From Thermosulfurimonas marina (GTDB lineage Bacteria; Desulfobacterota; Thermodesulfobacteria; Thermodesulfobacteriales; Thermodesulfobacteriaceae): a stretch of DNA of 64,000 nucleotides. Location: assembly GCF_012317585.1 (NCBI RefSeq), contig NZ_CP042909.1, positions 868,001 through 932,000 of the forward strand. Reading direction: 5' to 3'. The position numbers and the translations under genes are program-made. Below the pieces are notes generated by a model. That model was not told the origin of the DNA, made no database searches, and worked only from the letters and a program-made list of their open reading frames with translations. Numbering within the stretch: the stretch's first letter is position 1; each line of letters begins with the position of its first letter. Below are positions 4,672 to 28,938 of the stretch, in pieces.

Positions 4672-5451
4672 TCAGCCTTTCCGTCTTTCGATATAGGCGT
4701 AGGCGTTGTGGGCGTGAATGGATTCGAAATTTTCGGCCGAGACCGCAAACCAAGTAATGTCTGGGTGTTCCAGCAACCGCTGGGCCACTTCGCGGACCAC
4801 ATCCTCCACAAATCGCGGTCGGCGGTGGGCTTCCTCGGTGACGAATTTTTCGTCCGGTCGTTTAAGAAGGGGATAGACCGGGCTTGAGGCCGAGGCCTCC
4901 ACGATCTCGATCAGATCTTCCAACCAGACAAAGCGCCGGAAACGCACCCGGAGATTGACCTCCCCCCGCTGGTTGTGGGCCCCGATCTCGCTTATGGCCT
5001 GGGAACAGGGACAAACGGTCATCACCGGCACTCTAACCCCCAGAACGATATCCAGCGCCTTTTCGTCTTTGGCCCCGGCAATAAGACAGCGATATTCCAT
5101 CAGGGAGGGGGCCCGGCTCACCGGGGCCTCCTTTTTAAGAAAGTAAGAAAAGCGTATTTCCAGATGGGCCACCTTGGCTGAGAGCTTCTCCCGCATGCGA
5201 TCCAGGATAAAGGGAATGTTGCGGATGTGGATCTCCTCCCGGAATTCGTTGAGGATCTCAATGAAGCGGCTCATGTGGGTGCCCTTGAATTCCTGGGGTA
5301 GATCTACGAACATGTCGATCTCGGCCACCGTGTGCTGAAGCCCCCGGCGTTTGTCGAGCACCGAGACCGGATAGCGGATGCCCTTGATCCCCACCTTATC
5401 GATGGGGATCTCGCAGCTGGCCGGCTCGCTCTGGACGTCTTTAAGCTCCAT
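4672..5451 (-). CDS. folE2: GTP cyclohydrolase FolE2 (type IB)
   Basis: GTP cyclohydrolase IB converts GTP to 7,8-dihydroneopterin triphosphate, the first step of folate (and queuosine precursor) synthesis. Family signs are VGIKGIRYPV near residue 20, the THMSRFIEIL block, and the active-site stretch VMTVCPCSQAIS, where the first cysteine is the conserved catalytic and metal-binding residue. The later GAHNQRGEVNLRVR block also fits. The length of 259 residues is normal. FolE2 is the zinc-independent alternative to FolE and can use other divalent metals. Its start overlaps the cooC-like gene by 11 nt, so it is the last gene of the purDE-tsaC-cooC-folE2 operon. Confidence 0.93.
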   Translation of the reverse strand: MELKDVQSEPASCEIPIDKVGIKGIRYPVSVLDKRRGLQHTVAEIDMFVDLPQEFKGTHMSRFIEILNEFREEIHIRNIPFILDRMREKLSAKVAHLEIRFSYFLKKEAPVSRAPSLMEYRCLIAGAKDEKALDIVLGVRVPVMTVCPCSQAISEIGAHNQRGEVNLRVRFRRFVWLEDLIEIVEASASSPVYPLLKRPDEKFVTEEAHRRPRFVEDVVREVAQRLLEHPDITWFAVSAENFESIHAHNAYAYIERRKG

Positions 5452-23395: not shown

Positions 23396-24025
23396 ATGGA
23401 CGAAAGGGTTCGGGTAAAGATCTGTGGAATCATCCGGGCCGAGGACGCCCGGCTGGCTATCTCCCTGGGGGCCCATGCCCTGGGATTCATCTTCTATCCG
23501 CAAAGCCCCCGTTTCATCTCCCCGGAGGCCGCCCGGGAGATCGTGAGGAACCTCCCTCCTCTGGTGACCACGGTGGGGGTCTTCGTGAACGAAACCCCGG
23601 AGCGCATTCGAGAGATCGTGGAGGCCGTAGGCCTGGACCTGGTCCAGCTTCACGGAGACGAGCCCCCGGAGGTGGCCCGAATCTTCTTTCCCCGGGTGAT
23701 AAAGGCCCTGCGGCTGGCCTCCGAAGAGGATCTTTCCCGAATAGAGGATTACCGGGGTTGCGTACGAGGGATCCTGATTGAGCCCCGGGTGAAGGGGTTT
23801 TACGGGGGCAGCGGAAAGACTCTAGACTGGGACCTGGCCCGGAAGGCTGTGGAAAAGGGGCTTCCGGTCCTCCTGGCCGGAGGGCTCTCTCCGGAAAACA
23901 TTCGGGAGGCGGTAGAAAGGGTGAGGCCCTATGGGGTGGACGTGAATTCCGGGGTGGAAAGGGGGCCCGGAAGAAAGGACCCGGAGAAACTCCGGGCCCT
24001 CTTCCGGGCCCTGGAAGGGGGTTAG
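23396..24025 (+). CDS. trpF: Phosphoribosylanthranilate isomerase
   Basis: TrpF isomerises phosphoribosylanthranilate to CdRP in tryptophan synthesis. The TIM-barrel markers are RVKICGIIRAEDARLA (catalytic Cys), LGFIFYPQSPRFI, VVGVFVNE-like VTTVGVFVNET, DLVQLHGDE, and GVDVNSGVERGPGRKDPEK. The length of 209 residues is normal. It stands alone, 10 kb from trpEG, and the other trp genes are not in the window. The ATG has no Shine-Dalgarno sequence and a -10-like box sits just upstream. Confidence 0.94.
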   Translation: MDERVRVKICGIIRAEDARLAISLGAHALGFIFYPQSPRFISPEAAREIVRNLPPLVTTVGVFVNETPERIREIVEAVGLDLVQLHGDEPPEVARIFFPRVIKALRLASEEDLSRIEDYRGCVRGILIEPRVKGFYGGSGKTLDWDLARKAVEKGLPVLLAGGLSPENIREAVERVRPYGVDVNSGVERGPGRKDPEKLRALFRALEGG

Positions 24026-24031
24026 CCTAGA

Positions 24032-24397
24032 CTAGGGACTGCGGTGCCAGGGGCACTGTGGGCAGGGACCCCAGCGTTCATTCATGTCCTGCATGTCCTG
24101 GCAGAAACGGTCCTCTGGATTCTTCCGACACCAGTCCCGCATCTCCTGCCAGACCCGGGCCCGGAGTTCGCGCATCTTCTTCCAGTGTCCGCGCATGTTT
24201 TCCATGAAATCCCGACAAGCTGGGCTTTGGGGATTTACTTGGCGACAGTACCGCCACATTCCGCCCCAGGGGGGACCGCCCGGAGTCGTCGCGGTTTGAT
24301 TCCCTGAGGCCGGAGAGCCATTCTTGGAGGCCGAAAACCCCACTCCGCCCAAAAGGAACATTCCAATAAGGCTTAAGATAATCCATTGCTTCTTCAT
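24032..24397 (-). CDS. Secreted six-cysteine protein with duplicated helical motif
   Basis: A 121-residue protein with a clear signal peptide (KKQWIILSLIGMFLLGGVGF). The mature part holds six cysteines as C-x9-C, C-x8-C and CxxC. The first two pairs lie in a duplicated unit: YCRQVNPQSPACRDFMENM and WCRKNPEDRFCQDMQDMNERW. Between and around them are charged helices (WKKMRELRARVWQEMRDW). The end reads CPQCPWHRSP. Size and setting recall ZraP/CpxP-type periplasmic partners of two-component systems, but there is no LTxxQ motif, so this is only analogy. It is the last gene of the minus-strand operon, with AAGGAGGTAAGTC before ATG. Confidence 0.75.
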   Translation of the reverse strand: MKKQWIILSLIGMFLLGGVGFSASKNGSPASGNQTATTPGGPPWGGMWRYCRQVNPQSPACRDFMENMRGHWKKMRELRARVWQEMRDWCRKNPEDRFCQDMQDMNERWGPCPQCPWHRSP

Positions 24398-24422: not shown

Positions 24423-24827
24423 TTAGAATCGGGGACCACGCCGGTGAGCACGCCACCGCCGAAGATCCCGACGCAGCTCCCTACGATCCCGCCTTAGTTC
24501 TCGCCGGTCACCACGCCACTCCCTTCGGTCCCTCCGGATCTCACGCCGGTCTTGACGCACCTCTCTCAGATCTCTCCGGATTTCTCGAGGAGAGGAGTGG
24601 GGATCCTGCAGATCCCTTCGCAATTCGCGAAGGTCCCCCCGCAACTCCCGCCGGTCCCTTCGGATTTCCCTGCGATCCTGCCGGATCTCGCGCCGATCCT
24701 GCCGGATCTCCCGAAAGTCCTGCCGGATCTCCGGAGGCAGGGGGCCCTGCGGTCCCTGAGCCTGAGCCAGCCCCCCGGCAAGAAGGGTGCCCATAAGCAA
24801 CGCCGTAGCCCAAATTTTGCCTTTCAT
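24423..24827 (-). CDS. Secreted protein made of 14 charged heptads (E-I/L-R-x-D-x-R)
   Basis: After a signal peptide (KGKIWATALLMGTLLAGGLAQA) nearly the whole mature protein is a tandem heptad, consensus ExRxDRR, from residue 33 to 130. Acidic and basic residues alternate at i, i+3 and i+4, which favours a long, salt-bridged single helix rather than a classical coiled coil; hydrophobic positions are limited to one Ile/Leu per heptad. A break DPHSSPR at the seventh repeat splits it into two arms. No enzyme motif is present. The start has AAAAAGGAGGTGGATT before ATG. It lies 14 nt from the lipoprotein gene, in one operon. Confidence 0.78.
   Translation of the reverse strand: MKGKIWATALLMGTLLAGGLAQAQGPQGPLPPEIRQDFREIRQDRREIRQDRREIRRDRRELRGDLRELRRDLQDPHSSPREIRRDLREVRQDRREIRRDRREWRGDRRELRRDRRELRRDLRRWRAHRRGPRF
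24438..24731 (-). repeat. 14 tandem 21-bp coding repeats
   Basis: Fourteen consecutive heptads (98 residues, frame-keeping 21-bp units), such as EIRQDRR, EIRRDRR, ELRRDLR and EVRQDRR. The seventh unit, DPHSSPR, is divergent. In-frame repeats of this sort can expand and contract by slippage, so length may vary between strains. Confidence 0.85.
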
Positions 24828-24841
24828 AATCCACCTCCTTT

Positions 24842-25261
24842 TTAATAGTAGTTTCCGGTCTTGGTGCCTTCGCAGACCTCTTCAATACGGTCGGCCACTA
24901 GACGGCCGTGTCGCCAGATGCGCTTGTGGACCTTATGGCAGTAGGTCTTCTGGTTGTATTCCCTGGGGGTGGCTTCTACCACGGTGGAGCCCTCCTGATA
25001 GACCACCGGCTGTCCGCGAGCCACAGCCTCCTTAGAGGCCTCCACACTCAAGGCCGTGATCCCCCCACCCAGCACTGCTCCGGCGGCCCCGCCGATGACC
25101 GCTCCTCGCCAGGGGTTATGGCGGTCAAGCAAGGCCCCGGAGACCGCCCCCACCGCAGCCCCGAGTCCCGCCCCCTGATAGGGAGCGCTCCCCTGGGTGG
25201 TGGTACAGCCGGCCAAAAGAACCCCTGCCAGGAAGATGGCCCAGAGACCCTTTCTCCGCAT
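24842..25261 (-). CDS. Glycine-zipper outer-membrane lipoprotein
   Basis: I use ATG 25261 (GGAAAGGAGGTGAAAGGG upstream); an upstream-open frame to 25450 is not needed. The signal ends in the lipobox LLAGC, so the mature N-terminus is CTTTQGSAPYQG. Residues about 30-75 form a glycine zipper (GAGLGAAVGAVSGALLD, GAVIGGAAGAVLGGGI), as in the 17-kDa/SlyB/YMGG-type surface lipoproteins. The C-terminal third has two cysteines and a KVHKRIWRHGRLVADRIEEVC segment. It is the first gene of an operon with the heptad and six-Cys genes, and its upstream region has a sigma54-like promoter. Confidence 0.82.
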   Translation of the reverse strand: MRRKGLWAIFLAGVLLAGCTTTQGSAPYQGAGLGAAVGAVSGALLDRHNPWRGAVIGGAAGAVLGGGITALSVEASKEAVARGQPVVYQEGSTVVEATPREYNQKTYCHKVHKRIWRHGRLVADRIEEVCEGTKTGNYY

Positions 25262-25297
25262 CCCTTTCACCTCCTTTCCTCGTTTGCCAGAGCTTAA

Positions 25298-25313
25298 ATC
25301 AAGGGGCGTGCCA
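25298..25313 (-). promoter_or_regulatory. Probable sigma54 promoter of the lipoprotein operon
   Basis: On the minus strand TGGCACG-CCCC-TTGAT: a perfect -24 box and a -12 box with GA in place of GC. Predicted start is near 25287, 26 nt before the ATG, leaving room for its ribosome site. The imperfect -12 lowers confidence. Confidence 0.55.
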
Positions 25314-25363
25314 AAACCGGAAACCCTTGTTTCCCAAGAGATCAGGGAAAAAGCCGCGCTCTC

Positions 25364-25404
25364 CCTTCGACGAAATTTCCGAATCCTTCGACGAAATCGT
25401 CGAA
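25364..25404. promoter_or_regulatory. Paired activator-site candidate (21-bp spaced repeats with a palindrome)
   Basis: The 13-mer CCTTCGACGAAAT occurs at 25364 and again at 25385, exactly 21 bp apart (two helical turns). The second copy extends into the palindrome TTCGACGA-AA-TCGTCGAA (25387-25404). It lies 56-96 bp upstream of the predicted plus-strand start and 77-117 bp from the minus-strand one. Those distances suit an enhancer for the NtrC-type regulator encoded at 27035. Confidence 0.65.
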
Positions 25405-25433
25405 AGGGCAGGCGGCAAGAGAGGGCTGGCCGG

Positions 25434-25449
25434 GGGCACAGATCTTGCA
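25434..25449 (+). promoter_or_regulatory. Sigma54 promoter facing the secreted protein-kinase-regulator operon
   Basis: GGGCACAGATCTTGCA matches the consensus TGGCACG-N4-TTGCW at all key places: GG at 25435-25436 and GC at 25447-25448, 12 nt apart. Predicted transcription start is near 25460, only about 5 nt before the ATG at 25465, so the leader would be very short. Confidence 0.65.
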
Positions 25450-25464
25450 TAAAATCCTTGTAGG

Positions 25465-25854
25465 ATGCGGAGTTTGTTGGCCTGGATCATCGTAAGCCTT
25501 CTCTTTTCCCTTCCCTGGGGAGTCAAGGCCGGGGCGGAGGATGGCTGTTTCCGGCAGCCGGTAGCCTTTAAGGGAAAAGTAATCCAGGTGAGACCACCCC
25601 TTCTTGTAGTTCGGAATCGACAAAAGATCTATTTCGTCCGCCTAGGGCCTCTTCGTCTCTGGCAAGAACTGGGGGTGTCTCTTCGTCCCGGAGATCGGGT
25701 AGGGGTGCGGGGCTGGCTTTGCGGGGAGGTAGTGCTCCCGGAGGTCATTCGTTATCCCGGAGGAAAGGTCCGCTTTCGGGACCAGTGGGGGCGCCCTCTT
25801 TGGCGCAGGCGCTGGTGGCCCGGTCCCCGAAGGAGGTTCTGGCACCGGTGGTGA
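25465..25854 (+). CDS. Secreted OB-fold-like protein with Arg/Trp-rich tail
   Basis: The 129-residue protein has a signal peptide (SLLAWIIVSLLFSLPWGVKA). The mature part begins GAEDGCFRQPVAFKGKVIQV and runs as beta strands (LLVVRNRQKIYFVRLG, LRPGDRVGVRGWLCG, KVRFRDQWG), which suggests a small barrel such as an OB fold. Two cysteines are present. The last 20 residues are crowded with Arg and Trp (LWRRRWWPG, RRRFWHRW). I do not recognise a family. It overlaps the kinase start by 7 nt, so it may be the input partner of that sensor. Confidence 0.7.
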   Translation: MRSLLAWIIVSLLFSLPWGVKAGAEDGCFRQPVAFKGKVIQVRPPLLVVRNRQKIYFVRLGPLRLWQELGVSLRPGDRVGVRGWLCGEVVLPEVIRYPGGKVRFRDQWGRPLWRRRWWPGPRRRFWHRW

Positions 25855-27068
25855 AGGGCTGGCGGACTCTGGCGGCGGTGGGAGCGGGACTCCTGGTGGC
25901 CACCTTTGTGGCCGAAGCCTTCCTCCTGCGGCGGACCCTTTCCGAACACCAGCGCTTTGAGGCTGCGGCCCGGCTAGGGATGCTCGAAAGCCGTCTCACA
26001 AGCTACCTGGAGTTGCTGGCCGTGCTTCCCGAGCCCCCGGCCTATCTTCGCACTCTGGCCTGGCTCACCGATGAACTCCAGAGTGATCCCGGTCTGGTGG
26101 GGGTGCGCATCCTGGAGGGCTCCCACGTACTCCTGGACACCTTTCCCACCAATCTTTCCGGAATTTCCCCCTCCTGGGAACGCTGCCCCAAAGGGTACCG
26201 TTCGGGAAACCTCTACTTTCTTTGTCGAGAAAGCGAACTGGCCCCGGGACGGCGTTTCCGTCTGCTCGTGGTCTTTGACGCCAGTATCTCCAACCTCCTT
26301 TTTCAGGAAGCCCTCTGGGCCAGTGCCCTGATCCTTTTGGGGGCCTTGATGGTGCTCCTGGGAGGGGCCTACTATCTGGCCCGCACCGAGAAGAAGGCCC
26401 GGGAGCTTGAAAAGTGTCTTTCGGCCTCGGAGAGACTGGCCACTCTGGGACGTCTTTCGGCCATGATCGCCCACGAGATCCGCAACCCGCTCCACACCCT
26501 CTCCCTGGCTTTTCAGTATGCCCTTGAAGATCCGGAAGCCCTCCGAGAAAACCGGGCCCTGATTCAGAGGGAAATCCAGCGCCTTTCCGAGCTCACCGCA
26601 GAACTCCTCACCCTGGACCGGGGCCTGGAAATCCGTCCGGAAAGGCTGCATCCGGAAGAGGTGGTGGTGGAAATAGAATCTCGGTTCCGGGAAAAATTCC
26701 GGGCCCGGGGACTCTCCTGGGAGGCCTCTTGGGAGGACTTTGCGTTTTCCGGAGACCGTCGCTGGCTCTTGCGGGCCTTGGCCAATCTCCTGCAAAATGC
26801 CCTTCTGGCCCCTTCCGGACATCAGGTAAAGCTTTCGGTCTTTCGGGAAGGCCGGGAGGCGGTCTTTCGGGTGTGTAACACCGGAACCAGGCTCCCTTCC
26901 GTTCCTCCGGAGCGTCTCTTTGAAGCCTTTTTCACCACCCGGAACGAAGGCTTCGGAATAGGGCTCTATCTGGTGAAACAGGTGGCCGAGGCCCACGGAG
27001 GCCGGGTACAGGTCCGGGAAAAAGGAGGCTGGGTATGCTTCGAAATGAGGCTCCCCTGGTCCTCTTAG
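25848..27068 (+). CDS. Membrane sensor histidine kinase
   Basis: I choose GTG 25848 (AGGAGG 11 nt upstream; GTG 25851 also possible) over a longer frame from 25719. The 406-residue protein has one N-terminal membrane segment (about 8-25), a periplasmic sensor of roughly 130 residues, a second membrane segment (about 160-182), a HisKA dimerisation helix with the phospho-acceptor in SAMIAHEIRNPLH, and a HATPase domain (N box LANLLQNALLA; FEAFFTTRNEGFGIGLYLVK). The G1 box reads NTGT, with Asn where Asp is typical. It is the partner of the adjacent regulator, which overlaps it by 34 nt. Confidence 0.88.
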   Translation: MVKGWRTLAAVGAGLLVATFVAEAFLLRRTLSEHQRFEAAARLGMLESRLTSYLELLAVLPEPPAYLRTLAWLTDELQSDPGLVGVRILEGSHVLLDTFPTNLSGISPSWERCPKGYRSGNLYFLCRESELAPGRRFRLLVVFDASISNLLFQEALWASALILLGALMVLLGGAYYLARTEKKARELEKCLSASERLATLGRLSAMIAHEIRNPLHTLSLAFQYALEDPEALRENRALIQREIQRLSELTAELLTLDRGLEIRPERLHPEEVVVEIESRFREKFRARGLSWEASWEDFAFSGDRRWLLRALANLLQNALLAPSGHQVKLSVFREGREAVFRVCNTGTRLPSVPPERLFEAFFTTRNEGFGIGLYLVKQVAEAHGGRVQVREKGGWVCFEMRLPWSS

Positions 27069-28399
27069 TGGAGGACGAGGCCCCTCAACGGGCCCTTTTA
27101 CGGAAATATCTGGAAAGGCGGGGCTTTCGCGTAGCCGAAAGTGCCTCGGCCGCCGAGGCCTTGAGCGCCGCCGAAAGTCTCCCGGAGATCATTCTCCTGG
27201 ATTGGCGCCTTCCGGACGAAGACGGACTTTCCCTTCTTCCCAAGCTCAGGGAAAAGAGCCCCCTTTCGGCCATCATCATGCTTACGGCCTTTGCCACGGT
27301 AGAGCGGGCGGTGGAGGCCATGCGTCTTGGGGCCTATCACTACCTTACCAAGCCGGTAAACCTGGAAGAGCTCATCTTGATTATAGAAAAGGCCCTTCAG
27401 GAAAGGCGCCTCCGGATGGAGGTGGAAGATCTTCGGCGGAGGCTTTCGGCCCTGAGTCCTCCGGAGGTTGAGGGGGTGGTGGCCGAGAGTCCGGCCATGC
27501 GGGAGGTCCTCTCGCTTATCGCCCGGGTAGCTCCCACGGAGGCCACGGTCCTTCTGGTGGGAGAATCCGGGACAGGAAAGGAGGTCCTGGCCGGACTTCT
27601 CCATCGCTTGAGCCCTCGAAAGGACCAGCCCTTTCTCAAGATCAACTGTGCGGCTATTCCCGAGGGGCTCCTGGAGTCTGAGCTTTTCGGTCACGAACGC
27701 GGAGCCTTCACCGGAGCCGACCGGACCAAACCGGGGCTCCTCGAAGAAGCCGGAGAGGGCACGGTCTTTCTCGACGAGATCGGGGAACTGCCCCTTTCTC
27801 TACAGGCCAAGCTCCTCCGAGTGCTCCAGGACGGGACTTTCCGCCGGGTGGGAGGCACCCGGGAATTGCGCTGCCGGGCCAGGATCGTAGCGGCCACCAA
27901 CCGGGATCTGGCTCGCATGGTCCGGGAGGGAACCTTTCGGGAGGATCTTTACTGGCGTCTGGCGGTGATTACCCTCCGCCTCCCTCCCCTGCGAGAAAGG
28001 AGGGAGGATATTTTGCCTCTGGCCGAACATTTCCTGCGGGAGTTTTCCCGAAAGTATGGGAAAGAATTGCAGGGTTTCTCCCGGGAAGCCCTGCAGAGGC
28101 TTCTTTCTCACGGCTATCCGGGAAACGTGCGGGAACTGCGCAATATCCTGGAGCGGGCGGTCATCCTGGCCGAGGGTCCCCTGATCACCGAAAGGGACCT
28201 CACCTTTCCCGAGGAAGACTCTACGGAACTTACCCGAAAACTCTGGGAGTTACCCCTTCCCGAGGCGGTGGAGCTTCTGGAAAGAAGGCGCATCGAGGAG
28301 GCCCTGCGTCTGGCCGAAGGAGTGAAGACCCAGGCGGCCGAACTCCTCGGGATCTCCGAAAGGGCCCTGCGTTACAAGCTTGAGCGTTACGGACTTTGA
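27035..28399 (+). CDS. NtrC-family sigma54-dependent response regulator
   Basis: The 454-residue protein has a receiver domain (about 8-120; phospho-Asp in IILLDWRLPDEDG, Lys in YLTKPV), a central AAA+ domain (about 148-380) and a C-terminal Fis-type HTH (TQAAELLGISERALRYKLER). The AAA+ part shows Walker A GESGTGKE, the sigma54-contact loop ELFGHERGAFTGA, Walker B TVFLDEIGELP and the R-finger region. It activates sigma54 RNA polymerase by ATP hydrolysis. The predicted sigma54 promoters and paired repeats upstream of its own operon suggest autoregulation. Its 3' end overlaps the convergent Nudix gene by 13 nt. Confidence 0.94.
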   Translation: MLRNEAPLVLLVEDEAPQRALLRKYLERRGFRVAESASAAEALSAAESLPEIILLDWRLPDEDGLSLLPKLREKSPLSAIIMLTAFATVERAVEAMRLGAYHYLTKPVNLEELILIIEKALQERRLRMEVEDLRRRLSALSPPEVEGVVAESPAMREVLSLIARVAPTEATVLLVGESGTGKEVLAGLLHRLSPRKDQPFLKINCAAIPEGLLESELFGHERGAFTGADRTKPGLLEEAGEGTVFLDEIGELPLSLQAKLLRVLQDGTFRRVGGTRELRCRARIVAATNRDLARMVREGTFREDLYWRLAVITLRLPPLRERREDILPLAEHFLREFSRKYGKELQGFSREALQRLLSHGYPGNVRELRNILERAVILAEGPLITERDLTFPEEDSTELTRKLWELPLPEAVELLERRRIEEALRLAEGVKTQAAELLGISERALRYKLERYGL

Positions 28400-28938
28400 A
28401 AAACTTTGTGCCGAAACTTTTCCCAAAGAAGCCGAAAGGTGGGCGTAAACTCTTCCGGCCTCTGACGCAGCCATTCTTCGATCTCTTCCGGAGAAAACCA
28501 GCGGCCCTCTTCGATCTCCATAGGGTTGGGTCGAGGAGTCTTGCGGGTGGTCCCGGAAAAGAGCACTACAAATTCGTAGCCCGTTTCTTCGGAGGCGGGA
28601 AGGCGCCCTACTTCGGAAAGGCCGCAGAGAAGCCCCAGCTCCTCCTTCAATTCCCGTCGAGCGGCCACGGAATAGGGTTCCCTGGGGGCTACGTGCCCGG
28701 AGGCCGAAGAATCCCATTTTTCGGGATTTTCGTCCTTGAGGCGAGAGCGTTTCTGGAGGTAAAGCCGGCCTTCAGGGTTGAGGATCCAGACATGGACGGC
28801 CTTGTGGAAGAGCTTCTGTTCGTGGACCTTCCCTCGGGGCAGAAGCCCCATGATGTTTCCGAATTGATCCACGACTTCCAATATTTCTAGGAGCATTCTT
28901 TCCGGACTATCTTTTTTCTTCCTACCCCTTTTGGCCAT
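28387..28938 (-). CDS. Nudix hydrolase, IPP-isomerase-like subgroup
   Basis: A 183-residue protein with a complete Nudix box: GHVAPRE, then RELKEELGL (G-x5-E-x7-REUxEExGU pattern) near residues 80-102. The N-terminal part EVVDQFGNIMGLLPRGKVHE and LFHKAVHVWILNPEGRLYLQKRS resembles the IDI-like Nudix subgroup (YfcD type). It probably cleaves a nucleoside-diphosphate-linked substrate, which cannot be named. It overlaps the larB start by 17 nt, so it is cotranscribed downstream of larB. Confidence 0.85.
   Translation of the reverse strand: MAKRGRKKKDSPERMLLEILEVVDQFGNIMGLLPRGKVHEQKLFHKAVHVWILNPEGRLYLQKRSRLKDENPEKWDSSASGHVAPREPYSVAARRELKEELGLLCGLSEVGRLPASEETGYEFVVLFSGTTRKTPRPNPMEIEEGRWFSPEEIEEWLRQRPEEFTPTFRLLWEKFRHKVFQSP

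Follow-up and report, generated by a model that had tools for sequence, protein, structure and literature searches.

Gene content of the divergent module

We analyzed a window of 64 kb from the complete 1.76-Mb genome of Thermosulfurimonas marina, in which two divergent operons are separated by a 203-bp gap. The first gene on the plus strand (25465..25854) encodes a small exported OB-like protein (designated P129), followed by genes for a membrane sensor histidine kinase (25848..27068, HisKA and HATPase_c) and an NtrC-family response regulator (27035..28399). The GTG start of the kinase, which was chosen from orthologs and the DNA, is at 25848 or 25851 and overlaps the P129 stop. Because the P129 and kinase genes overlap, as do the kinase and regulator genes, the three genes were considered to form an operon. 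The regulator is a complete sigma54 activator of the NtrC type, containing a receiver domain (Response_reg), an AAA+ domain with the GAFTGA motif (Sigma54_activat) and a Fis-type HTH (HTH_8), and the genome encodes approximately ten full sigma54 activators. Multiple alignment of six P129 orthologs revealed a conserved core, RPPLLVVET...RLGPYRFW. A single-sequence model of P129 was beta-rich, with low confidence (pLDDT 60), and no significant Pfam or PDB family was found.

Three genes are located on the minus strand. The first encodes a glycine-zipper lipoprotein (GZ, 24842..25261, Gly-zipper_YMGG and Rick_17kDa_Anti), has AGGAGGTG as its ribosome site and is a conserved divergent partner of the regulator operon. 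We did not accept as a gene a long minus-strand ORF that continues from GZ across the gap (24842-25450), since its frame is closed just upstream of GZ in most orthologs. The second gene (REP, 24423..24827) is an ORF for an exported protein, in which a signal peptide is followed almost entirely by short D-R-R-E-I/L-R repeats (charged repeats of the REIRQDRREIR type) and whose length differs between genomes. The third gene (Z, 24032..24397) encodes a small exported protein, and six residues (C51, C61, C90, C99, C112 and H118) are invariant in the alignment of its six orthologs. Its model is helical (pLDDT 70), and fold comparison with this model listed nothing above a score of Z 3.0. A relationship of protein Z to ZraP was considered but gained no significant support; profile searches against solved structures gave only E-values of at least 0.08. 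When the six members were searched against Pfam, one ortholog had a weak match to Metal_resist (E 0.0096). Distant Z relatives in other genera (L221, L222 (G019, G017), L223 and L224) show an internal duplication of a unit that carries paired cysteines, a C-x9-C-like pair followed by a C-x8-C-like pair.

Both operons run into convergent genes, trpF (23396-24025) at one end and an idi-like gene (28387-28938) at the other, and the module is therefore closed on both sides. All four non-regulatory proteins are exported and the kinase resides in the membrane, suggesting a role in the cell envelope.

Five other genomes contained orthologous loci; G023 belongs to another genus, and the remaining four to that of T. 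marina. The divergent gene layout was the same in all five except for REP, which was not found at every one of these loci; REP orthologs adjoin GZ in three other genomes. In an additional member of the genus, G026, the regulator operon is present on a contig that ends before the gap. When P129 and GZ were used as queries, the operon of P129, kinase and regulator was also detected in the families f2 and f3 of the same order and in f39, a family that is less closely related. Members of f2 usually have the lipoprotein gene divergently oriented next to the regulator operon. In one member of f3, G292, it lies ~1.45 Mb from that operon, and each of the two is associated with the top sigma54 site at its own locus. 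Regulator relatives with 54–60% identity occur in other genera (L057-L066), where they are accompanied by a different kinase and located directly upstream of glyA and a gene for a dCMP-deaminase-like protein. The relative in G005 (L060:5581-6936) does not have an exact GA[FYL]TGA motif, which could reflect either a change in its activation of sigma54 or an error in the sequence.

Two sigma54-like promoters facing apart

Both sigma54-like elements lie inside the gap and face away from each other. We scored every position of the window, on either strand, with a sigma54 matrix whose weights were taken from the literature and not fitted. The minus-strand site ranked first (14.03) and the plus-strand site second (13.99). 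The third-best site is located elsewhere, at 4772-4787 on the minus strand (TGGCCCAGCGGTTGCT). An rpoN gene is encoded in the genome (PF04552, E 1.4e-58), with an intact RpoN box (ARRTVAKYR), as the original prediction of a divergent sigma54 promoter pair had asked to be checked.

The predicted promoter of the regulator operon (25434..25449, plus strand, GGGCACAGATCTTGCA) has GG at 25435-25436 and GC at 25447-25448. The ten bases between them give the canonical 12-nt spacing, exactly as had been predicted, and transcription would start at ~25460. This promoter was retained in 5/5 complete orthologous gaps and was also seen in other families. The predicted promoter of the effector operon (25298..25313, minus strand, start at ~25287) reads TGGCACGCCCCTTGAT from 25313 to 25298, that is, TGGCACG-N4-TTGAT. 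Its -24 box is perfect, in agreement with the original prediction, which did not mention that the -12 box is TTGA instead of TTGC. No GC is thus present at -12 of this element, and the GA found there should weaken the promoter. As the -24 box and the spacing conform to the consensus and the -12 GC does not, we regard it as a probable, non-canonical sigma54 site. It too was retained in 5/5 complete orthologous gaps, and a -12 box with GA, GT or GG, alongside a near-perfect -24 box, was a feature of 12 of the 17 effector promoters.

The regulator promoters showed a different pattern. GG-N10-GC was present in 19/19, a count that is partly a product of choosing the best score, and the -24 box was weaker in many of them (several have sequences such as CGGCCC or AGGCAT). 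Directly abutting the -12 box of the T. marina regulator promoter is TAAAAT (25450..25455, plus strand), a sigma70 -10-like hexamer which may serve as a basal promoter whose start would almost coincide with that of the sigma54 promoter. Hexamers matching TATAAT in 5/6 positions were found at this place in 14 of the 19 regulator promoters (fewer, depending on the offset allowed) and in 1 of the 17 effector promoters; most regulator promoters of the genus of T. marina and of f2 have one no more than 3 bases from the -12 box. The overlap between the two elements appears as TGCTATATT in f2 and as TGCATAAAAT in the T. marina window, with TATATT or TAAAAT as the hexamer. In addition, the start codon of P129 follows the -12 C by 15–19 nt in the genus and in f2 (promoters in L269-L278), which leaves a predicted leader of only 3–7 nt and hence a near-leaderless message. 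In the T. marina window, the ATG comes ~5 nt downstream of the predicted start. A normal leader is found in G023 and in more distant members.

These features raise the alternative that only the effector promoter depends on sigma54. In that case, sigma70 would drive constitutive transcription of the regulator operon from TAAAAT/TATATT, yielding a near-leaderless message, and the sigma54 likeness of the plus promoter would be secondary. The frequent -10-like hexamer, the short distance to the start codon and the weak -24 boxes would fit such an arrangement. However, it is difficult to reconcile with GG-N10-GC in every regulator promoter, even allowing for the choice of the best-scoring site. Moreover, no recognizable -35 element for the hexamer was present in the aligned orthologous gap sequences, and the regulator promoters of f39 and f3, whose sigma54 sites are strong, contain no 5/6 -10-like hexamer. 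We consider this alternative improbable and favor sigma54-dependent transcription of both operons. Whether the regulator promoter is in addition a superposed dual sigma70/sigma54 promoter, with the -12 box (TGC) doubling as the upstream part of the -10-like element, is a tentative suggestion that we think somewhat doubtful. Simpler explanations for the hexamer are possible, such as shared ancestry or ordinary A/T-richness downstream of -12. If the dual promoter is real, the start sites used by two holoenzymes would almost coincide, providing both basal and inducible expression, and the effector promoter would be purely sigma54-dependent. The asymmetry itself may be viewed as a testable design rule: effector promoters with a good -24 and a poor -12 box, and regulator promoters with a good -12 box and a -10-like element.

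Paired dyads and conservation of the gap

Between the promoters, two copies of the 13-mer CCTTCGACGAAAT (at 25364 and 25385) lie at the predicted distance of exactly 21 bp. The repeats are parts of two putative activator dyads. Dyad II (25387..25404, TTCGACGAAATCGTCGAA) is the perfect 8-2-8 palindrome that had been predicted for one of the repeats, TTCGACGA-AA-TCGTCGAA. Dyad I (25366..25383, TTCGACGAAATTTCCGAA), 21 bp away, is a degenerate copy of dyad II that is kept in related genomes. The genome search that had been proposed for the palindrome returned 25387-25404 as its single exact match. Outside the gap, the nearest matches in the T. marina genome carry 3 mismatches and are no commoner than those of a control pattern. 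Scattered matches with 1–2 mismatches were observed in other genomes of the genus. The dyads are paired in helical phase (21–22 bp) and lie at a variable distance from the promoter, ~30 to 65 bp between dyad II and the plus promoter across orthologous gaps, as expected of an enhancer. The predicted order, a putative enhancer between two promoters, agrees with this layout. Its placement beside the gene for a sigma54 activator has to be adjusted slightly, as this gene is the third of the plus-strand operon, ~1.6 kb downstream.

Both promoters and two dyads 21–22 bp apart were found at the orthologous loci of all five other genomes. In an alignment of six gaps, 38/79 columns inside the elements were invariant, compared to 7/124 outside (Fisher p 1.4e-12). 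When the gaps were shuffled, the score of a single promoter was reached in 0–0.9% of cases, and both scores together in 0/2000 for each genome. These p-values overstate independence because the genomes are related.

Sigma54 sites also accompany the module in f2, f3 and f39, and dyads often do so. Using the dyad pattern of the T. marina genome alone and a distance of 20–22 bp, we found significant pairs (threshold 0.05) upstream of the regulator promoter in G413, G365, G228, G065, G132, G256 and G100. The pairs were not significant at the regulator promoters of G180, G271, G414, G415, G416, G417, G418 (of which G271, G414 and G418 are members of f2) and G292, and the detached lipoprotein gene of G292 also had no significant pair. 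Outside the genus and G023, dyad pairs exceeded those in shuffled sequences, with a combined p of ~1e-10 under an optimistic assumption of independence. Two groups served as negative controls, the regulator relatives in glyA clusters and relatives of the lipoprotein from other genera within the family. Both lacked dyads as well as strong sigma54 sites at the appropriate position.

With approximately ten sigma54 activators in the genome, the dyads could instead be bound by another regulator, e.g., a repressor, with sigma54 activation coming from elsewhere. We judge this even less probable than a sigma70-driven regulator operon: close dyad matches in the T. marina genome occur only within the gap, the dyads travel with the regulator operon across families, and a spacing of two helical turns suits activator dimers. 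It is hardly credible that promoters and repeats are a coincidence in a GC-rich gap; single sigma54-like matches are indeed no commoner in the genome than those of a reversed control (58 vs 64 with at most 1 mismatch), so that the case rests on divergent pairing and conservation, but these two and the rank of the sites contradict chance.

A putative envelope stress switch and known systems

The sequence elements, gene order, domain content, presence of rpoN and conservation across genera and families suggest, with a probability of nearly 0.9, that the gap controls a self-contained sigma54 two-component module under autoregulation, in which both regulator binding and the transcription starts are predicted. 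The divergent sigma54 promoter pair with shared activator sites that was originally proposed is now backed by rpoN, a complete activator and conservation at five further loci. The following mechanism may be envisaged. The kinase would sense an envelope signal, perhaps envelope or metal stress, and phosphorylate the response regulator. Two regulator dimers could then bind, one per dyad, on the same DNA face at a distance of two helical turns, where an AAA+ ring would assemble and, through short DNA loops, open closed complexes of sigma54-polymerase at both flanking promoters. Activity of the minus promoter would yield the glycine-zipper lipoprotein, the charged-repeat protein and the cysteine-rich helical protein, and that of the plus promoter P129, the kinase and the regulator itself, creating positive feedback. 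Basal expression of the regulator may be provided by the -10-like element on the plus promoter.

Because related heat-loving bacteria share this arrangement, the gap very probably holds a genuine, self-amplifying switch for cell-envelope stress, belonging to a general type that is already known. The two-component system appears to be uncharacterized, and its conservation spans a bacterial order and reaches further. For its regulator, the data provide a target set and a candidate sigma54 operator, TTCGAC-N6-GTCGAA in pairs 21 bp apart.

Among known systems, zraP/zraSR of Escherichia coli and Salmonella, in which ZraR controls the divergent sigma54 promoters of zraSR and zraP (PMC4987338), is similar in several respects. 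It has a membrane kinase and an NtrC-type regulator, divergent sigma54 promoters that serve its own operon and a small exported envelope protein, and a narrow regulon (PMC7657598). However, the T. marina kinase reached only 100.7 bits of the 479 required by the ZraS cut-off, and the regulator 350.6 of 760 bits for ZraR. The effectors also differ, being a lipoprotein with a glycine zipper, a repeat protein and a protein rich in cysteine that has no significant match to ZraP, and an extra exported protein, P129, opens the regulator operon. The module would thus work like zraPSR, but given the missed ZraS and ZraR cut-offs and the lack of a significant ZraP match for Z, we do not assign it to that family. 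This suggests that the layout of the zraP/zraSR type also occurs with unrelated effectors.

Another example involves the orp operons of Desulfovibrio vulgaris (PMC3897727, cited in PMC4641369), two divergent operons reported to be controlled by sigma54, their cognate activator and IHF. The divergent operons, sigma54 and the cognate activator are common to both systems, whereas the genes and function of the T. marina module are different. Finally, QseE/QseG/QseF (GlrKR) of Escherichia coli is a two-component system that acts with sigma54, serves the cell envelope and has glmY and rpoE as targets (PMC6075780). It resembles the T. marina module in the envelope role proposed for the latter and in possessing an exported third component. 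However, QseG is a lipoprotein and P129 is not, and the divergent effector operon of the T. marina module has no comparable counterpart in QseE/QseG/QseF.
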